A DNA stretch of 64,000 bases from Sporolactobacillus laevolacticus DSM 442 (GTDB lineage: Bacteria > Bacillota > Bacilli > Bacillales > Sporolactobacillaceae), in contig NZ_AWTC01000012.1 of NCBI RefSeq assembly GCF_000497245.1, positions 1 through 64,000 of the forward strand, written 5' to 3'. Made by a program: the position numbers and the translations under genes. The stretch's first letter is position 1; the number at the start of each line of letters is the position of its first letter. Below, one piece after another: positions 20,663 through 35,068 of the stretch. The notes beneath the pieces were generated by a model, which saw only the letters and a list, made by a program, of their open reading frames with translations, did no database searches and was not told where the DNA came from.

Positions 20663-21433
20663 TCAAAAAATAGGTAATAGTATTTTCACGATTAGCAACA
20701 CAATTACGGTAAGCATAACCGGACGAAGGATTTTAGCACCATATTGTGCAAAATAGACACCTACATAGGCTCCAATAATGACTGAAATGCCCATGACCAA
20801 TCCGGCGACCCAGAGTACGCTGCCATGCATTGCAAAAACGATAAACGCAGTTACATTTCCCACGAGACTGATCACTTTCGCTGAACCGCTTGCTTGCAAA
20901 AGCGAAAACCCAAACCATATGGTCAATGAGAAAATAATCAGCAGTCCGGATCCGGGTCCAAAAAAACCTTCATAGAATCCGAAGAAAAGACCTAACAAAA
21001 AAATGATCAAAGCCCTAGCTAAAGTTAAAGAACCCTTTCCTATCCTCTCTTGGGTTCCAAATTCCTTTTTCAGAAGGACAATCACCCCAATCACAACTAA
21101 TAGAATCATAATAATCACCTGGAGGATTTCAGGAGGGATTTGAATGGTTGTTACGACGCCTAAAATCGTACCCGGCAGCGTACCAATTAAACAGATTAGT
21201 GTCTCCGGCCACCAGCGCATATACCCTTTTTGCGAAAATTTTACCGTTCCTATTAAAGAACCCATCGATAGAGCAAATTGATTGGTACCCAAAACGACCT
21301 GTGCTGGTGCGCCAACGAGAAAAAGGGCAGGAATACTGAACAGTCCTCCACCACCAATAATCGTATCAACAACTCCAGCGAAAAATCCTCCGACAATAAG
21401 TATTACAAGTTGAGAAAATCCTAAAGTAATCAT
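20663..21433 (-). CDS. TSUP-family (TauE/SafE) sulfite/organosulfonate exporter
   Basis: 256 residues, eight hydrophobic helices. The N-terminal FAGVVDTIIGGGGLFSIPAL and the central FYEGFFGPGSGLLIIF are the duplicated TSUP motifs. Such carriers export sulfite, sulfoacetate or related anions. It is divergent from a TrmB-type regulator, with an inverted repeat in the shared intergenic region. Confidence 0.92.
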   Translation of the reverse strand: MITLGFSQLVILIVGGFFAGVVDTIIGGGGLFSIPALFLVGAPAQVVLGTNQFALSMGSLIGTVKFSQKGYMRWWPETLICLIGTLPGTILGVVTTIQIPPEILQVIIMILLVVIGVIVLLKKEFGTQERIGKGSLTLARALIIFLLGLFFGFYEGFFGPGSGLLIIFSLTIWFGFSLLQASGSAKVISLVGNVTAFIVFAMHGSVLWVAGLVMGISVIIGAYVGVYFAQYGAKILRPVMLTVIVLLIVKILLPIF

Positions 21434-26924: not shown

Positions 26925-27647
26925 TTATAGAACTTTTTCTAAAAAAGATTGAGTCCTTTTTTGGGTAGGCTTTTCAAAAATTTGCTCGGGGCTTCCTTCC
27001 TCAATAATCCGACCGTCTTCCATAAAAAGTACACGATCAGATACTTCACGTGCAAACCCCATTTCATGCGTAACAACAACCATTGTCATACCTTCTTTTG
27101 CTAACTTTTTCATTACATTTAAAACTTCCCCCACCATTTCAGGATCAAGGGCAGATGTTGGCTCATCAAAAAGCATAATATTAGGTTGCATGGCTAGGGC
27201 TCTTGCAATAGCTACCCGCTGTTTTTGTCCTCCAGAAAGTGTGTCAGGATTAACGTTTGCTTTCTCTCTAAGCCCTACTTGTCCCAAAAGATTTAGTGCT
27301 AAATGTTCTGCCTCGCCATTTTTTAGTTTCTTAATATACATAGGGGCAAGGGTTATATTTTTAAGGACACTGAGGTTTGGAAATAGATTAAAAGATTGAA
27401 ACACCATACCAATATTTTCTCTAATTTTATTAATGTTAGCTTTTTTATTTGTGAGTTCGACCTTCTCTATCGAAATGGAGCCAGCCGTTGCGCTCTCTAA
27501 TCCATTCAGACATCTGAGTAATGTACTCTTTCCAGAACCTGACGGACCAATAATACAAACAACTTCATTTTTTTTAACATGTAAATCAATATCTTTTAAA
27601 ACTTCGTGGATCCCATAACTTTTTTTTAGGTTCTGAACTTCAATCAT
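26925..27647 (-). CDS. Polar amino-acid ABC transporter, ATP-binding protein
   Basis: 240 residues, GlnQ-type ATPase. Walker [11 protein letters not shown]-loop [10 protein letters not shown], signature [15 protein letters not shown], Walker [15 protein letters not shown] and H-loop VVTHEMGFA are all intact. ATG at 27647 overlaps the permease stop codon (ATGA), so the two are translationally coupled. It energises import with the permease and binding protein upstream. Confidence 0.96.
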
Positions 27648-28291
27648 GATACCCACCTCTCAAGTCTGGATGATAGCAGCGTCAAGATTTCTATTACCAT
27701 GAAGTATAATATACCAACCATAATCCACACCTGAAAAGCTTTGAATGATGAAGCGATTATGATTTGTCCGCTAGATGTAAGTTCTATTACCCCGATCGAA
27801 GAGAGAATTGAAGTGTCTTTTAATGAAATAATGAATTGATTCACCAATGGAGGAATCATCCTTTTAAACGCCTGAGGCAATATCACTTTCCTCATGGATA
27901 CCCCATAAGGAAGTCCCAAACTTCTTGCAGCCTCCATTTGCCCACTGTCTATCGATTTGATACCCGCACGAATAATTTCTGAAATATAAGCACTAGCATT
28001 GATACCAATAGCAATGATCCCGGCTAGCATAGCATCCAATTTGAAATTTAAGACGCTCGGTAATCCGAAATAGATAAAGAATACCTGAACAAGAAGTGGT
28101 GTCCCTCTAACTAAATCGATATATAGTTTCGCAATTAATTTTAGAATTTTGTTGTGTCCGACATTAATAATTCCAAGCACTAATCCAATAATTACAGCAA
28201 CGATGATGCCGACACTAATTATTTTTAATGTCAGTACCAATCCGGCCAAGAGAGCAGGTAAGCTCGCCTCAAACAGTTTAAAAAAATCCAA
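27644..28291 (-). CDS. Polar amino-acid ABC transporter, permease
   Basis: 215 residues of the HisM/GlnP family, about five helices: [40 protein letters not shown], and the EAA loop [37 protein letters not shown] start behind GGGTGA. Only one permease gene is present, so it probably forms a homodimer. Confidence 0.95.
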
Positions 28292-28311: not shown

Positions 28312-29091
28312 TTATTTAACTTTAATATATTTGCTAATAATTTTATCGTATTCACCATTAGCTTTTAGTTTTTTAATTCCATCATTAAATTTTTTGAGTA
28401 ATTCTTCATTATTACCCTTTTTAACAGCAAACCCATAGTTTGCTTTATCAAATTTTCCGACCATTTTTATTCCCGAGTTTTTATCTACAGTCATTCGATA
28501 AGCGACAACTGGGTAATCAGTTAAGCCAATATCGGCATTATCATTTGCTATTTGTTGGAACAAGGCTGGTGCATCATCAAAGTATTGAATTTTAAAGTTA
28601 TATTTTTTTTGATTTTTTTCAGCCCACGCTGCTCCAGATTCACCTTTTTTTACCGCAACCGTTTTATTAAGGAAGTCTTTTTCACTGTTAATTTTGTTAT
28701 TGTCTTTATTCGCAAATGCCCCAACCCCTGACTCATAATAGCCATCAGAAAAGTCTAACGTTTTCTTTCTTTCATCGGTGATGAACATTGCTGCTAGAGA
28801 CGCATCGACCTGGTTTGCTTGGAGAGCAGGGATAATACCATTAAAATTCATATGTTTTTCTTCATACTTGAAATGCTCAACCTTAGATACTGCTTTTAGT
28901 AACTCAACATCAATTCCAACCCATTTTCCATTCTCCTTGTACTCAAAGGGGGCATAATTCATATCCATAGCAATTACGTATTTTTTATCACTTTTCTTGC
29001 TGCTTCCCGATTGGCTTGAACATCCGGTAATTAATACGCTTATTACCAAAAACACAAAGATCGATATTAATCTTAATTTTTTTGTCTTCAT
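28312..29091 (-). CDS. Amino-acid ABC transporter, substrate-binding lipoprotein
   Basis: 259 residues. The signal peptide ends in a lipobox (VLITGC), so the mature protein is anchored at the outer membrane face. The bacterial solute-binding family 3 pattern (YAPFEYKENGKWVGIDVELLKAV, then NQVDASLAAMFITDERKKTLDFSDGYYE) indicates binding of a polar amino acid or similar. ATG at 29091 follows TTGGAGGAAA. It is the first gene of the importer operon and lies next to an ornithine-cyclodeaminase-family gene, which may use the same compound. Confidence 0.94.
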   Translation of the reverse strand: MKTKKLRLISIFVFLVISVLITGCSSQSGSSKKSDKKYVIAMDMNYAPFEYKENGKWVGIDVELLKAVSKVEHFKYEEKHMNFNGIIPALQANQVDASLAAMFITDERKKTLDFSDGYYESGVGAFANKDNNKINSEKDFLNKTVAVKKGESGAAWAEKNQKKYNFKIQYFDDAPALFQQIANDNADIGLTDYPVVAYRMTVDKNSGIKMVGKFDKANYGFAVKKGNNEELLKKFNDGIKKLKANGEYDKIISKYIKVK

Positions 29092-29200
29092 TCTTATTTC
29101 CTCCAATGGATCATGTATTTTTTAACAGAGAGTGCATGCATTGTTAAATGAAACTCATTAATTTAGAACTTGTTTTATAATTAATTCACTATGGGATTGT

Positions 29201-30325
29201 TTATTTAACCATATAAGGGGTATCCCAAAGCAACAAATTTGTCCCAATTCCCTTTTCCAATGCCTTCTGGTAAATATCGTATCCAAGTGCCACATCAAAA
29301 ACGGCCATTCCACATGCCACGAATATTATTTTTTCGTTTTTATTTGTTCTTCCTTCCTTTTCTTTTAAAATAACGTCTCCTATACTCGTTGATCGGATAA
29401 GTGGTTCAATTTTACCCTCATCGATCAGCTTATAGATGGGACCGCCAATAACTCCATCGTAATAAGCTTGTTTATCAACTGAAGTTTCTGCTTCTGCAAC
29501 ATAATTCTCATGAAGTTTCACATGATCATAGATAATTTTATTTGTTTCCCAAAATGCACGGTCAGCATTTGCCGGACCACTAAAAAGTATGATCGAACCT
29601 TTTTTAATCCATTCATTCTTTAAATAAAGTGGCTTGGCTCTAGAAGCCGCTATAGTCACAATGTCACTCTCTCTTAACGTCTCTTCCAATGAAGTACTTA
29701 CAATTCCTTTAATGCCCAAAAATTCTGCTGACCAATCTGCAAGTTGTTGGGCTTTTTCAACAGTACGATTATAGAAAATCGCTTTCTTAATATTAGGTGC
29801 CTGCGAGACAATGGATTGATAACAGAATTTATTGATTGGACCGCAACCGATAACAGCACAAACCTCTGCATCTGGATTTGCCAGATACTTTGTTGCTACC
29901 GCAGGAATGGCTCCTGTCCTGCAAGCGCTGATAAGATTAGCCGACATCAAGCTTAAAGGTTCACCAGTTTCTTTATCATTCAACATTAAGGTTAATATTG
30001 ATCTTGGTAGTCCTTTTTCTTTATTTTCAGCATTGGATCCGTACCACTTATTTCCACACACATCGAATCTTCCTCCCAAGTATGCCGGCATAGCCACAAA
30101 CCTTCTATCTGGTCCTGCAACCGGCATATTTGGAAAAGGACTTCTCTGGGGAAATGAGACACCTAAGCCATGACTATTGTGATTACTGCCACCCATTAGA
30201 TAGTCACCTTTACTTAATAAAGTAAATACTTCTTCAGCGATTTCAACATTTCTTTTTGTATCTAATACACCTGCATCAATCACGTTTGATTCTGACAGGT
30301 ACAAAAATTCAGTCTTTTTAGGCAC
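29201..30325 (-). CDS. Ornithine cyclodeaminase/mu-crystallin family protein (tyramine oxidase subunit B-like)
   Basis: 374 residues, GTG start at 30325 behind GGGAG. The C-terminal half holds a Rossmann NAD-binding motif (VCAVIGCGPINKFCYQSI) and the family segment LMSANLISACRTGAIPAVATKYLA with the substrate-binding Arg. The N-terminal GDYLMGGSNHNSHG and the SPFPNMPVAGPDRRFVAMPAYLGG block match the group annotated as tyramine oxidase subunit B. Related enzymes act on ornithine, alanine, 2,3-diaminopropionate precursors or imines. Its position directly upstream of an amino-acid importer suggests catabolism of the imported compound (inference). Confidence 0.85.
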   Translation of the reverse strand: MPKKTEFLYLSESNVIDAGVLDTKRNVEIAEEVFTLLSKGDYLMGGSNHNSHGLGVSFPQRSPFPNMPVAGPDRRFVAMPAYLGGRFDVCGNKWYGSNAENKEKGLPRSILTLMLNDKETGEPLSLMSANLISACRTGAIPAVATKYLANPDAEVCAVIGCGPINKFCYQSIVSQAPNIKKAIFYNRTVEKAQQLADWSAEFLGIKGIVSTSLEETLRESDIVTIAASRAKPLYLKNEWIKKGSIILFSGPANADRAFWETNKIIYDHVKLHENYVAEAETSVDKQAYYDGVIGGPIYKLIDEGKIEPLIRSTSIGDVILKEKEGRTNKNEKIIFVACGMAVFDVALGYDIYQKALEKGIGTNLLLWDTPYMVK

Positions 30326-30646: not shown

Positions 30647-32056
30647 ATGGGAAAAATACGAAATTATGACGATCTGATCTCACACGGATATAGTCATTCT
30701 CGTAAAATTATTCTTGATATAGTGAATAGAACACTAGATGAACTAGATGCTTATTCCAGAATGAAGCAAATCATTCATTTGGAAGATGATACCTTGATTA
30801 TCGGGGAAAAAAAGTGGGACCTGTCTCAAAAGAAAAACATCTACCTTATCGGCGCCGGTAAAGCATGCAATGCAATGGCCAAAGCAATTGATGAAATTCT
30901 TGGAGATAAGCTGACAAAAGGCATTATTATTGTGAAAGTATTAGAAAAAACAGATGTATATAACAAAACAGAAGTTTATGTTGGGGGACATCCATTGCCC
31001 AATCATGAAGGATATCTTGCAAGTAAGAAAATTCTCCAGCTCGTTGATTCTGCAGATTCCGATGATCTGTTTCTTGCAGTGGTAAGCGGCGGAAGTTCTT
31101 CATTGATGAGTTGTCCAATTGACGGAATAACTCTCGAGGATGAAAAAGTAACAACGGATATCATGTTGAAATCAGGTGCCGGCATTTATGAAATCAACGC
31201 AATCAGACGGCACATATCACAAATGAATGGCGGAATGCTTGCAAAGCGCATCCAAGAAAAAGGCGCTGAGCTGATAGGGTTCGGAATCAGTGACGCCGTT
31301 GGTAATCCTCCGACACAAAATATCCGTATTCCATATAAAAATTATTCCAGTACACCAATAGGTCCGGATAAGACAACATTTGAAGACGCGCAACATGTTA
31401 TTCAAAAGTACAATGTGCAGGATCGTCTTCCAAAAAGTGTTGTTGATTATTTGATGAACGCAGGACCAGAAAAAGAAACACCAAAAGAGTTCCCAGATAA
31501 TACGTATTACTTAATTAACACCTTGCCTGATTCTGGTATTTATGCAAAAAAAATATCAGAAGAATTGGGAATAAAGGCTATTATTCTATCATCTTACTTG
31601 GAAGGTGAAAGTAAAGAAGCCGGGATCTTTTTCGCAAGTATCGCAAAAGAAATACAAGAATACGGAAATCCGGTGAAAGCACCCTGCATTGTAATTAGTA
31701 CAGGGGAAACAACAACTGAGATTTTGGATAACCGCTTGATTAAAGGGCATGGCGGCCCATCTCAGGAATTGACAGCAAGCTTTGCAGCATCCATTGCTGC
31801 AGTTCCTGGTGCGTGCATGCTCTCAATTGATTCCGAAGGTACAGACGGCACAACACAGGTTGCCGGTGGAATTACAGACGCAACAAGTATGGAACAAGCA
31901 AAAAACAAGGGAGTGGATTTATTCTCCGCACTACGTTCACACTCATGTTATGAAGCGCTGTCCGAAATCGGAGATATCGTTATTACAGGAAACACAGGCA
32001 CAAATGTTTGCGATCTAAATATTTTATATATTCCTAAAAAAGGAGAACAACTATGA
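30647..32056 (+). CDS. Glycerate 2-kinase (GckA/MOFRL family)
   Basis: 469 residues. The N-terminal DUF4147 domain is clear (KNIYLIGAGKACNAMAKAIDEILGD, then FLAVVSGGSSSLMSCP), and the C-terminal MOFRL domain follows (GHGGPSQELTASFAAS, later DGTTQVAGGITD). The family phosphorylates D-glycerate at C2 to give 2-phosphoglycerate. ATG at 30647 has GGAAGG nine bases upstream; an earlier ATG (30641) is too close. Its stop overlaps the start of an enolase paralogue, so the two enzymes probably act in sequence. Confidence 0.9.
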   Translation: MGKIRNYDDLISHGYSHSRKIILDIVNRTLDELDAYSRMKQIIHLEDDTLIIGEKKWDLSQKKNIYLIGAGKACNAMAKAIDEILGDKLTKGIIIVKVLEKTDVYNKTEVYVGGHPLPNHEGYLASKKILQLVDSADSDDLFLAVVSGGSSSLMSCPIDGITLEDEKVTTDIMLKSGAGIYEINAIRRHISQMNGGMLAKRIQEKGAELIGFGISDAVGNPPTQNIRIPYKNYSSTPIGPDKTTFEDAQHVIQKYNVQDRLPKSVVDYLMNAGPEKETPKEFPDNTYYLINTLPDSGIYAKKISEELGIKAIILSSYLEGESKEAGIFFASIAKEIQEYGNPVKAPCIVISTGETTTEILDNRLIKGHGGPSQELTASFAASIAAVPGACMLSIDSEGTDGTTQVAGGITDATSMEQAKNKGVDLFSALRSHSCYEALSEIGDIVITGNTGTNVCDLNILYIPKKGEQL

Positions 32057-33324
32057 AAATTAAACAGATTCTGGCTAGACAACTTTTAGATTGTAAAGGT
32101 AGGCCTATGATTGAAGTAGATGTCATTACTGAAAATGGATGTATCGGCAGAGGAAGCGCACCCACCGGATCCTCAGTCGGTATGTACGAAGCATTTGTTT
32201 TGAGAGACCAGGACGACTACGAATATCATGGAATGAGCGTGCATAAAGCGATTAGTAATATTATTAATATTATCGCACCGCAATTAATTGGCATGGACGT
32301 ACTTGATCAAAAAGCGATTGATTACAAAATGATTCAACTAGATGGAACAGACAACAAGAGAAATTTGGGAGGAAACGCGATTTACTCTGTTTCTATTGCA
32401 TGTATGAGAGCTGCAGCCAAAGTCAGAAAACAGGAAGTTTATCAATATATTTCACAAGATCATATCACACAGGTACCAGTTCCAAGCTTTAATGTCATTA
32501 ATGGCGGCAAATATGACACATTCATTCAACCCTTTAATGAATTTATTATCATGCCTTATAAAGCCGAATCAATCTTCGAAGCGGTAGAAATGGCAGTTAA
32601 TACTTTTCAAGAACTAGAGAAAGTACTTACAAAATATCTGGGCAAAAAACCAACCACTGCACCTTCATATGGATATGCCGCTCCTTCAGAAGATCCTGAA
32701 GTCGTGTTTTCCTTAATTCAGGAGGCCATCGACAATTGCCACTACACAGAAAAGATGGCGTTTGCATTAGACTGCGCATCAAGTGAAATGTATGACAAAG
32801 AAACCAATACTTATTTATTAAAAGGTCATCGGGTAACTTCAGATGAATTATTGTCCTATATGAAGGACCTTTCAGAGAAATTCAATTTTGTTTTCATTGA
32901 AGATTTGTTTGATGAGAATGATTGGCCTGCTTTTGTTAAAGCTACTAAAACACTGAACAGATGTATGATAATCGGTGATGATCTCATCGTAACCAACTCT
33001 GACAAACTCGAGTATGCTAATACAATGGGTGCCGTGAATGGCTTTATTCTGAAGCCTAATCAGGTTGGTACACTTACCGAAGCTTTGGCAACCTACGATT
33101 ACGCCAAGAAGAATCATTTAATTGCTGTACCTTCCGGTAGATCCGGTGGTGTTATTGGGGACATTGCCATGGATTTTGCCGTGGGTCTGCAAGTCGGATT
33201 CATCAAAAACGGCGCCCCACGTTCGGGGGAAAGAATAGATAAATTGAATTATTTAATGCGCATTTGCAGCTTAAATCCAGAGATTAAATTGGCCGACCTT
33301 TCTCATTTAATTAAATTCGACTAA
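32053..33324 (+). CDS. Divergent enolase-family protein
   Basis: 423 residues, aligned by eye with bacterial enolase along its length. Metal ligands are kept: Asp240 (ALDCASSE), Glu283 (FIEDLFDENDW) and the Asp of IIGDDL near 309. The catalytic Lys334 (ILKPNQVGTLTE), phosphate-binding Arg363-Ser364 and Lys385 (FIKNGAPRSGERIDK) are also kept. Not kept are the general-acid Glu in GDEGGFAP (here PSYGYAAP, near 205), the His of GGSHADN (here GGKYDTF, near 153) and the His before Arg-Ser (Gly362). It therefore may not be a standard enolase. It overlaps the glycerate kinase by four bases. Confidence 0.88.
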   Translation: MKIKQILARQLLDCKGRPMIEVDVITENGCIGRGSAPTGSSVGMYEAFVLRDQDDYEYHGMSVHKAISNIINIIAPQLIGMDVLDQKAIDYKMIQLDGTDNKRNLGGNAIYSVSIACMRAAAKVRKQEVYQYISQDHITQVPVPSFNVINGGKYDTFIQPFNEFIIMPYKAESIFEAVEMAVNTFQELEKVLTKYLGKKPTTAPSYGYAAPSEDPEVVFSLIQEAIDNCHYTEKMAFALDCASSEMYDKETNTYLLKGHRVTSDELLSYMKDLSEKFNFVFIEDLFDENDWPAFVKATKTLNRCMIIGDDLIVTNSDKLEYANTMGAVNGFILKPNQVGTLTEALATYDYAKKNHLIAVPSGRSGGVIGDIAMDFAVGLQVGFIKNGAPRSGERIDKLNYLMRICSLNPEIKLADLSHLIKFD

Positions 33325-33467: not shown

Positions 33468-34151
33468 ATGCCTATTCCAAAGATAAAAAAAGTGAATGAT
33501 CATGGTGAATTATCATCAAAAGAAATTGTGTATCGAACACTGAAAAAATGGATCATTGAAGGTCAACTCTGTCCTTTGGAAAAATTGGATCACAATGAAA
33601 TCGCAAACTATTTTTCTGTTAGTAGGACACCTGTCCGAGAGGCATTTCAATTATTAGAAACACAAAATTTGATACAATCTTATCCAGGAAAATCCACTGT
33701 CGTAACTGAATTAGAAGTAGATAACATTGACGAATTGTACCAACCACTGATCACCCTGCAAGGTCTTGCTATGTCATTATGCATTGATCGTTGCAGCGAA
33801 AACAATTTGGATCATCTTAATCAAATTAATGAAGAATTTAAAAGGGCAATCAGTTTGAGGCAGACAAACAATATTTTGAAAAAAGATCAGGAATTTCATA
33901 AATATTTAATCAACATGTCTGAAAACCAATATGTCATTGAGTTTTGTACGCTATTAATGGATCATGTATATCGACTTGAGTATCTTTTTTTTGAACATAA
34001 TACTGATCTTCATAAATCCTATTTTGAACACAAGGATATTATAGAGGCTCTACAACGAAAAGATTCATACGCTTCACCTCAACTCGTTAAACAACACTGG
34101 AACCGAACATTAATGCTCATACAAACATTGACTAAGACAGAGATACAGTAA
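33468..34151 (+). CDS. GntR-family regulator (FadR/FCD subgroup)
   Basis: 227 residues. The N-terminal winged helix (IVYRTLKKWIIEGQLCPLEKLDHNEIANYFSVSRTPVREAFQLLETQNLI) is followed by an all-helical FCD effector domain with metal-type His/Asp positions (DQEFHKYLIN). GGTGAG precedes the ATG. The subgroup senses organic acids or amino acids; the upstream kinase/enolase unit is the obvious candidate target. Confidence 0.92.
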   Translation: MPIPKIKKVNDHGELSSKEIVYRTLKKWIIEGQLCPLEKLDHNEIANYFSVSRTPVREAFQLLETQNLIQSYPGKSTVVTELEVDNIDELYQPLITLQGLAMSLCIDRCSENNLDHLNQINEEFKRAISLRQTNNILKKDQEFHKYLINMSENQYVIEFCTLLMDHVYRLEYLFFEHNTDLHKSYFEHKDIIEALQRKDSYASPQLVKQHWNRTLMLIQTLTKTEIQ

Positions 34152-34219: not shown

Positions 34220-35068
34220 ATGGAACATTTTACACAAAATGTAAATCAAAATTTCAATCAATTTACATCATCTCAAAAAAAAGTAGCTAATTATATCCTT
34301 GACCATCTTGAAACCGTCGCTTTCAGCACATTAGAGGAACTTGCTTTAAAAATCGATACCAGTACCACAACCGTTATACGATTCACAAAGGTCTTGGGAT
34401 ACAAAGGCTACTCAGAGATGCAAAAAGATATTCAAAATGGGATTAAAAATAAAGATACATTGCCCCACCGAGTAAGTGAGATAGGGGATATCCCAAGCAA
34501 CCAGTTATTAAGAAGTGTTTTTAATAATGAGATCAATAATATACAAAAGACACTTGCTGCCCAATCAGAAGATGATTTAGATGAAGTGATAAAATTAATT
34601 ATAGATGCTAAGAACGTTTATATTATCGGGATGAGAAGTTCCTTTTCTTTAGCATTCTACACAGCATCCAGATTAGGCCAAATTAAAGGACACACCCATC
34701 TTGTTCAATCATCGGGAATGACTTTTCCAGAAGAAATATCCGGAGCGAAAAGCGGAGATATTTGCATTGTTTTCTTATTTCCTCGCTATTCAAAGACCAC
34801 GTCTACTTTGGTGTCGTCATTAAAAGAAAGCGGCGTAAAGATTATTCTATTTACCAGTCTAAATTATTCCATTCTCAAAGGTTACGGGGATATTATTATT
34901 CCATGTGCGGTTTCGGAAGTCACGTATAAGAATTCATTTGCAGCTCCGATATGCATAATTGATTATATCGTGGCGGCAGTACTTCAAAACAATCGAGATG
35001 AAGCTATTCAATTACTGGATAAAACTGAGAGATTACTTTCCCAGGGATACTATCTTGGATTGGTTTAA
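34220..35068 (+). CDS. RpiR/MurR-family regulator with SIS domain
   Basis: 282 residues: N-terminal HTH_6 domain (SSQKKVANYILDHLETVAFSTLEELALKIDTSTTTVIRFTKVLGYKGYSEMQ) and a C-terminal SIS phosphosugar-binding domain (DAKNVYIIGMRSSFSLAFYTASRLG). The ATG follows CCCGGAGG. RpiR regulators usually respond to a sugar phosphate, which fits the neighbouring phosphoglycerate-type enzymes. Confidence 0.92.
   Translation: MEHFTQNVNQNFNQFTSSQKKVANYILDHLETVAFSTLEELALKIDTSTTTVIRFTKVLGYKGYSEMQKDIQNGIKNKDTLPHRVSEIGDIPSNQLLRSVFNNEINNIQKTLAAQSEDDLDEVIKLIIDAKNVYIIGMRSSFSLAFYTASRLGQIKGHTHLVQSSGMTFPEEISGAKSGDICIVFLFPRYSKTTSTLVSSLKESGVKIILFTSLNYSILKGYGDIIIPCAVSEVTYKNSFAAPICIIDYIVAAVLQNNRDEAIQLLDKTERLLSQGYYLGLV

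Follow-up and report, generated by a model that had tools for sequence, protein, structure and literature searches.

In a window of 64,000 nucleotides from Sporolactobacillus laevolacticus DSM 442 (contig NZ_AWTC01000012.1, positions 1 to 64,000), the gene of a DUF4147/MOFRL kinase, a relative of class II glycerate 2-kinases, overlaps the gene of an enolase paralogue that has lost the general acid of the enolase reaction. The cassette that contains them is real and conserved, and the conclusion that kinase and paralogue are a dedicated pair is strongly supported. As to function, we propose, with a probability of about 0.4, that the two genes form a module in which the kinase makes a 2-phospho-hydroxyacid carrying some group other than hydroxyl on C3, and the paralogue would expel that group to give phosphoenolpyruvate (PEP); such a class of mechanism is plausible. 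We found no description of this cassette in the open-access literature, among the matches listed.

Glu211 of enolase (yeast enolase numbering is used for enolase residues) is the general acid that assists the departure of hydroxide, according to an excerpt of PMC4450660. We aligned 24 paralogues, one of them from a broken gene (L054), with 33 canonical enolases. His159, Glu211 and His373 are present in all 33 canonical proteins, while the paralogues carry Tyr at 159, Ser at 211 and Gly at 373, each in 23 of 24, and Asn in place of Gln167 in all 24; the acidic ETED loop (377-380) is replaced in them by a mostly neutral loop of the GVIGD type. A larger set comprises 35 paralogues from 33 loci (two loci have tandem pairs and one gene is split in two pieces). 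None of these keeps Glu211 or His373, only one keeps His159 (L074_9404), and Gln167 has become Asn in 31, the four proteins of the tandem pairs keeping Gln167 and having Gln at 373. Position 390 is basic in 34. All 35, on the other hand, keep Asp246, Glu295, Asp320, Lys345, Arg374, Lys396 and Glu168, and Ser39 is kept in 33 and replaced by Thr in the other two. A first-pass annotation of the window had described the loss of three residues, the Glu, the His of the GGSHADN motif and the His before Arg, which the alignment identifies as Ser205, Tyr154 and Gly362 of the window protein, together with the retention of the metal ligands and the catalytic Lys, and both observations extend to the set as a whole. 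The phosphate-binding Arg-Ser that it also listed holds for the Arg, which is invariant; the position of Ser375 may be Ser, Ala or Gly. Because not one of 35 proteins keeps Glu211 or His373 while every one keeps the other half of the site, in three phyla and within one clade, the active site appears to be a constrained redesign and not the product of decay.

The overall architecture of the paralogue is predicted to be that of an enolase. Its AlphaFold2 model (predicted local distance difference test score 85.5, predicted template-modelling score 0.85) has as best structural match the enolase 4yws, with a Z-score of 47.4 and a root mean square deviation of 1.9 over 388 residues. Compared with enolase as represented by TIGR01060, the paralogue shares the fold, the two-metal site, Lys345, Lys396, Arg374, the length, the score and 41% identity to the canonical eno of its own genome, which the first-pass annotation had proposed to look for and which lies at G000:C10:77556-78767. 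It differs in the replacement of Glu211, His373, His159 and Gln167, in its separate clade and in being accompanied by a kinase gene at all loci examined, one of these kinase genes being truncated. In a maximum-likelihood tree, from which L054 was omitted, 34 paralogue rows split from 34 canonical rows with a branch support of 100/100. The canonical side consisted of 30 rows from the window genome and its relatives together with L048-L050 and L075, so the separation of the paralogue clade holds against these canonical enolases. A second enolase of the relative G005 (L075) was considered as a clade member and rejected, all its canonical residues being kept. Since the defining Glu211 and His373 are missing, the paralogue should not, judging by its residues, be filed as phosphopyruvate hydratase, the label that automatic annotation would give because the NCBI eno model accepts the paralogues. 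On annotated plasmids, two paralogues are indeed named 'enolase' or 'enolase C-terminal domain-like protein'.

Several variants of the paralogue were seen along the way. Tandem paralogues stand behind a single kinase at L074 (8054-10672) and L083 (8987-11571), beside a tripartite tricarboxylate transporter; several active-site positions, including those of Glu211 and Asp380, are not the same in the two copies. At L054 (10001-11262, Rhizobium jaguaris plasmid pRCCGE525a) the paralogue is interrupted, its two parts being read in frames that overlap, and the plasmid's gene table does not list it; kinase and cyclodeaminase-family genes adjoin it. The genome of L038 has the cassette and a canonical eno and, in addition, a tandem pair of eno-model matches (G1059 C2:68440-70956) with paralogue-like scores of 341 and 338 bits.

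The kinase scores 205.9 bits with the Pfam model DUF4147 and 94.7 bits with MOFRL, two domains that it shares with the class II glycerate 2-kinases (GckA/TtuD), and the solved chains found for it are 1x3l and 2b8n. A class II glycerate kinase phosphorylates D-glycerate at the 2-hydroxyl, as stated in an excerpt of PMC2063504. The window kinase differs from the class II enzymes in staying below the cut-offs of both NCBIfam glycerate 2-kinase equivalog models (193.4 of 550 and 161.1 of 670 bits, both being narrow-group models by name), in being paired with an altered enolase and in the identity gap among plasmid relatives given below. By its domains it is best taken simply as a DUF4147/MOFRL member.

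The neighbourhoods of the paralogue, whose comparison the first-pass annotation had suggested, were examined at 33 loci: the window, 16 from GTDB species genomes, seven from plasmids and nine from other genomes, the near copies L055 and L056 being counted separately. An intact kinase gene is found at 32 of them and lies directly upstream on the same strand at 30. At L080 and L081 it is on the opposite strand with one gene between kinase and paralogue (the L081 paralogue was recovered by tblastn), and at L077 the kinase is truncated and the cyclodeaminase gene broken. In the window the four-base overlap already noticed in the first reading is the ATGA at 32053-32056, and at L078 kinase and paralogue are read as a single frame of 895 amino acids, close to a contig edge where an assembly error is possible. 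Distances between kinases and between paralogues correlate in a Mantel test with r 0.90 over 31 loci (0 of 5000 permutations), and the corresponding values are 0.84 for kinase and cyclodeaminase (24 loci) and 0.85 for paralogue and cyclodeaminase (23 loci), each with 0 of 5000 permutations; L077 was left out of the kinase and L054 out of the paralogue comparison. Ordinary co-descent of neighbours also gives such matching distances. Among 72,556 plasmid records, the nine with a kinase of at least 63% identity are the same nine that have a paralogue of at least 58%, and the next kinase is at 37.5%. A chance pairing of the two genes is ruled out by the intact kinase at 32 loci, the fused frame and the Mantel correlations.

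A third gene, beyond the original two-gene reading, is transcribed divergently from the kinase and encodes an oxidoreductase of the ornithine cyclodeaminase/mu-crystallin family (196 bits with Pfam; 424 bits with NF004848, cut-off 362). It is present at 27 of the 33 loci, window included, in one case broken; 23 of the 27 have it within 8 kb, while at L035 and L037 it lies at the margin of the retrieved sequence and at L032 and L046 just beyond, and the L042 gene, hidden by an antisense open reading frame (ORF), was recovered by tblastn. In the genome of L044 it is on a different contig. With the family (alanine dehydrogenase, pyrroline-2-carboxylate reductase, SbnB) the protein shares the Pfam domain and the passing of NF004848. 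Its best solved chains are the pyrroline-2-carboxylate reductase 6t3e and 4m54, listed as a putative ornithine cyclodeaminase and which we take to be SbnB; with the SbnB model it reaches 165 bits, the cut-off being 327. By the names of models and structures its relatives act on alanine, cyclic imines or beta-N-substituted alanine, the last being the substrate of SbnB.

Other genes that handle nitrogen or 2-hydroxyacids recur around the cassette. A glutamate dehydrogenase family gene lies within 8 kb at 13 of the 33 loci, in visibly different types: that of L032 passes an NADP-specific model, those of L033, L051 and L054 score best with other glutamate dehydrogenase models below their cut-offs, and those of L035 and L038 were assigned by Pfam. 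As the types differ, the enzyme seems to have been recruited more than once. LarA-family racemase relatives are found at L033, L034 and L042 (below model cut-offs). L074 and L082 have a nickel-pincer isomerase of group 22 (above cut-off), and a D-2-hydroxyacid dehydrogenase family gene is present at L032, L046, L076 and L080. HyuAB occurs at L051, L055/L056 and L082, genes resembling SsnA, cytosine permease and PreA adjoin the cyclodeaminase gene at L045, and L079 has an allantoin-permease-like gene. The labels of glutamate dehydrogenase, tripartite transporter and TauE were checked with family models.

On the proposed path the kinase would phosphorylate the 2-hydroxyl of a 2-hydroxyacid X-CH2-CH(OH)-COOH in which X is not OH. 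With two Mg2+, as in enolase, the paralogue would bind this phosphoacid at its carboxylate, C2 and phosphate, Lys334 would abstract the C2 proton, and collapse of the dianion would expel X from C3 to give PEP and XH, with X departing without a general acid of the Glu211 type. Because X would leave without such an acid, the side of the site that faces the C3 hydroxyl in enolase (Glu211, His373, Gln167 and the acidic 377-380 loop) would have been rebuilt; apart from Glu211, the changed residues are presumably contacts of that hydroxyl. The cyclodeaminase-family enzyme, glutamate dehydrogenase and the 2-hydroxyacid racemase or D-2-hydroxyacid dehydrogenase would either make the hydroxyacid from a precursor of the amino acid type or process the released nitrogen. 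X is most likely N-linked, as in isoserine or a beta-N-substituted lactate, since the neighbours handle nitrogen, and the product is probably PEP itself, since the neighbourhoods showed no recurring gene that could be recognised as consuming an unusual phosphoenol compound. A mixed set of released XH would also explain why transporters and extra genes vary from locus to locus. More doubtful is the specific version, in which the clade of gut bacteria, Treponema and rhizobia consists of lyases that use phosphorylation-activated beta-elimination to bring an overlooked class of N-substituted lactates, or their parent amino acids, into central metabolism as PEP. Carboxyphosphonoenolpyruvate synthase, which belongs to a phosphonate antibiotic pathway, is also related to enolase and catalyses another reaction at PEP.

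A number of observations weigh against this proposal. The paralogue scores 382 bits with TIGR01060 (eno), above the cut-off of 300, and paralogues pass that cut-off in all 20 carrier genomes tested. An acid that canonical enolases lack, Asp370, stands in all 35 paralogues eight residues past the lost His373, at the position of Thr381, and Tyr206, present in 32, is a possible acid supplier; by its position in the alignment Asp370 could be a relocated acid, and Tyr206 is likewise a candidate. A canonical eno was not found in four of the 20 carrier assemblies (G059 and G1058, both Treponema, G625 and G754), and there the paralogue could serve as enolase. The genomes of L039, L074, L076, L082 and L083 yielded no cyclodeaminase-family gene, the wide variety of transporters does not point to one common substrate, several accessory genes have obvious other roles and may be mere neighbours, and a search of the open-access literature found no pathway for isoserine or a similar compound with these genes.

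Several of these points would suit a paralogue that is still a 2-phosphoglycerate enolase, with its acid supplied by Asp370, Tyr206 or Glu163 (equivalent to Glu168 and thus invariant), the pair then being a regulated D-glycerate route. A class II kinase makes 2-phosphoglycerate, according to the excerpt of PMC2063504, the eno score is above the cut-off, and two Treponema genomes have no visible canonical eno. We nevertheless consider this unlikely, if the foremost of the alternatives, given the replacement of Glu211 and His373 in all paralogues, of His159 in 34 and of Gln167 by Asn in 31. A Glu shifted in the alignment, which the first-pass annotation had named as a way to supply the acid, was looked for, and no conserved Glu lies at or directly beside Ser205. 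The window genome, moreover, has its canonical eno, so a poor second enolase would gain it little. The first reading had left two options, a second route from 2-phosphoglycerate to PEP or a pair acting on a related 2-phosphorylated acid; the latter fits better, since the residues for the C3 hydroxyl are replaced and 16 of the 20 carrier genomes tested, as well as the window genome, hold a canonical eno. In the Treponema genomes G059 and G1058 the acid-less paralogue is the sole member of the enolase family, and canonical eno is absent from all three genomes examined of that genus. A missing canonical eno is not specific to carriers, because 30 of 80 assemblies of the Treponema family to which G059, G1058 and G1062 belong also gave no enolase match (E 1e-60).

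The division of the active site into a retained proton-abstracting half and a lost leaving-group half would also suit an enzyme that epimerises or isomerises a 2-phospho-hydroxyacid without elimination, and racemases are common in the enolase superfamily. This seems improbable to us: among the recurring neighbours we recognised neither a phosphatase nor any other enzyme that would take up an epimerised phosphoacid, and LarA-family and nickel-pincer isomerase genes are separately present at five loci. Very improbable is a paralogue devoid of catalysis that serves the kinase in a regulatory or structural role, to which the loss of the general acid, the fusion and the near-fixed adjacency would point, as the metal ligands and both catalytic Lys, needless in a dead enzyme, are kept in all 35.

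The transporters near the cassette are of many types. TRAP transporters occur at eight of the 33 loci and tripartite tricarboxylate transporters at L074 and L083, with polar amino acid, APC, NCS1, DUF3100 and sugar ABC transporters at one or a few loci each; reading the substrate from the transporters was abandoned, as the types vary by locus. The first two types are in keeping with a substrate whose C3 bears a further carboxylate or carbon, such as 3-hydroxyaspartate, tartrate or some other hydroxy-dicarboxylate. The kinase would then act on the hydroxyl beside one carboxylate, and a substituted phosphoenolpyruvate would result. The LarA relatives of L033 and L042 score best, below cut-off, with the malate racemase model, and the loss of acidic residues from the 377-380 loop and the basic residue at 390 would suit such a ligand. 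Simpler dehydratases exist for such dicarboxylates, however, and the recurring neighbours include no recognisable pyruvate kinase or phosphatase for such a product, unlike the Salmonella cluster described below, so that we rate this possibility unlikely in nearly the same degree as a 2-phosphoglycerate enolase.

Sulfite is a further candidate for the leaving group, since a sulfonate needs no acid to depart: kinase and paralogue would convert 3-sulfolactate, itself derived from cysteate, to PEP with release of sulfite, running the phosphosulfolactate synthase reaction backwards. The L051 cluster includes a CuyA/XcbE-like pyridoxal phosphate enzyme that reaches 228 and 241 bits with two models whose cut-offs are each 450, tripartite transporters occur at the two loci named, and a TauE/SafE-family membrane protein is encoded in the window at 20663-21433 (minus strand, 150 bits), about 9 kb from the cassette. 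That protein has no relatives among 578 neighbour proteins of the loci examined (one-sequence phmmer), the anaerobic sulfite reductase subunit C (AsrC) is above cut-off in only 4 of 23 carriers, and the nitrogen and nucleobase genes are left unexplained. Sulfonate catabolism is thus chemically attractive but not supported, and we hold it to be quite improbable, more so than an epimerase. Elimination of an N-linked group remains our preferred proposal.

A Salmonella plasmid (NZ_CP022016.1 463635-471046; L094 3200-10611) has a cluster that likewise combines a DUF4147 kinase with an enolase paralogue altered at active-site His residues. Its paralogue is 35% identical to the window protein and 49-50% identical to six canonical enolases, and differs from the former in keeping Glu211, with His159 changed to Leu and His373 to Glu. 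The cluster also holds an MFS transporter, a D-Ala-D-Ala-ligase-like protein, a GntR regulator and a pyruvate kinase. A megablast search of 5,426 E. coli genomes gave no match to it.

In a scan of GTDB species genomes we obtained 19 loci, of which 16 are family members (61-68% identity), mostly in Lachnospiraceae or other Clostridia and two in Treponema, and three are canonical enolases (39-42%). Carriers of the cassette include Mediterraneibacter massiliensis (L034) and Faecalicatena orotica (L036). Plasmids gave nine paralogue records at 58-61% identity, from Agrobacterium, Rhizobium and Shinella, below which identity falls to about 41%; of these nine records, seven were retrieved for the study of loci. 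The paralogue is rare and scattered, since samples of whole genomes contained it in 2 of 398 from the phylum of the window (the window genome counted), in 10 of 397 from the family of G058 (three already known) and in 1 of 198 from the class of G059 (the one already known). As rhizobial rows cluster together in the tree and Treponema rows fall among those of Lachnospiraceae, the tree points to horizontal transfer. The window genome itself probably acquired it, because kinase and paralogue have no counterpart in 57 relatives and the G+C content is lower than on the flanks: the kinase is in none of these relatives (E 1e-20), the paralogue query finds in them matches of 113-312 bits, the level of canonical enolases, against 957 for the window's own protein, and G+C is 33-42% over about 27-35 kb of the window and about 39-46% on either side.

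The features of the window are collected in the table below. The kinase start given in the first-pass annotation, 30647, is an in-frame ATG better spaced from an upstream GGAAGG, while the ORF opens two codons earlier. For the cyclodeaminase-family gene a GTG at 30325, after a purine-rich stretch resembling a ribosome-binding site, is the probable start, the longest ORF extending to 30409. Promoter-like sites around the cassette numbered 27, against 25.9 in shuffles, that is, without excess.

Table. Features of the kinase-enolase paralogue cassette and its surroundings in the window
Feature	Position	Strand	Basis or remark
ABC transporter of polar amino acid type, ATPase	26925-27656	-	family models
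ABC transporter of polar amino acid type, permease	27644-28291	-	family models
ABC transporter of polar amino acid type, substrate-binding protein	28312-29106	-	family models
Ornithine cyclodeaminase/mu-crystallin family oxidoreductase ('tyramine oxidase subunit B', NF004848)	29201-30325	-	divergent from kinase
DUF4147/MOFRL kinase (glycerate 2-kinase class II relative), 471 amino acids	30641-32056	+	ORF and Pfam; start 30641 or in-frame ATG 30647
Enolase paralogue, 423 amino acids	32053-33324	+	ORF; Pfam Enolase_N and Enolase_C
Tyr154 codon, position of His159	32512-32514	+	alignment
Ser205 codon, position of general acid Glu211	32665-32667	+	alignment
Asp240 codon, metal ligand (Asp246)	32770-32772	+	alignment
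Glu283 codon, metal ligand	32899-32901	+	alignment
Asp309 codon, metal ligand	32977-32979	+	alignment
Lys334 codon, proton-abstracting Lys345 of enolase, retained	33052-33054	+	alignment
Gly362 codon, position of His373, precedes Arg363	33136-33138	+	alignment
Asp370 codon, novel acid, candidate relocated acid	33160-33162	+	35 of 35 paralogues
GntR/FCD regulator	33468-34151	+	Pfam; a relative lies within 8 kb at 11 of 33 loci, counting the window
RpiR/SIS-domain regulator	34220-35068	+	Pfam; a relative lies within 8 kb at 12 of 33 loci, counting the window

Two further groups of neighbours were seen away from the window. At L032 (10987-16899), L041 and L046 a protein of about 1600 amino acids with HD and nucleotidyltransferase-like parts and a partner of 334 amino acids follow the glutamate dehydrogenase. 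Plasmid members of NF004848 at L085, L086 and L087 (40-43% identity) are followed by a Rid-family gene and a flavin adenine dinucleotide (FAD) oxidoreductase gene, one of the three lying within a nicotine-degradation region, and the closer plasmid member L084 (54%) has neither gene adjoining.

Enolase is held to be among the most invariant enzymes of metabolism, and here a clade passes the family model without the acid of the reaction, tied to a kinase of its own across three phyla, with members in Bacillota, Treponema and Rhizobiaceae, in a cassette of only three genes. Should the paralogue be a lyase for another leaving group, this would be a new reaction for the enolase family, and enolase counts in genomes and metabolic models would carry a recognisable error. 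If the proposal is true, the cassette would give gut and root bacteria a route to use a compound not yet recognised.

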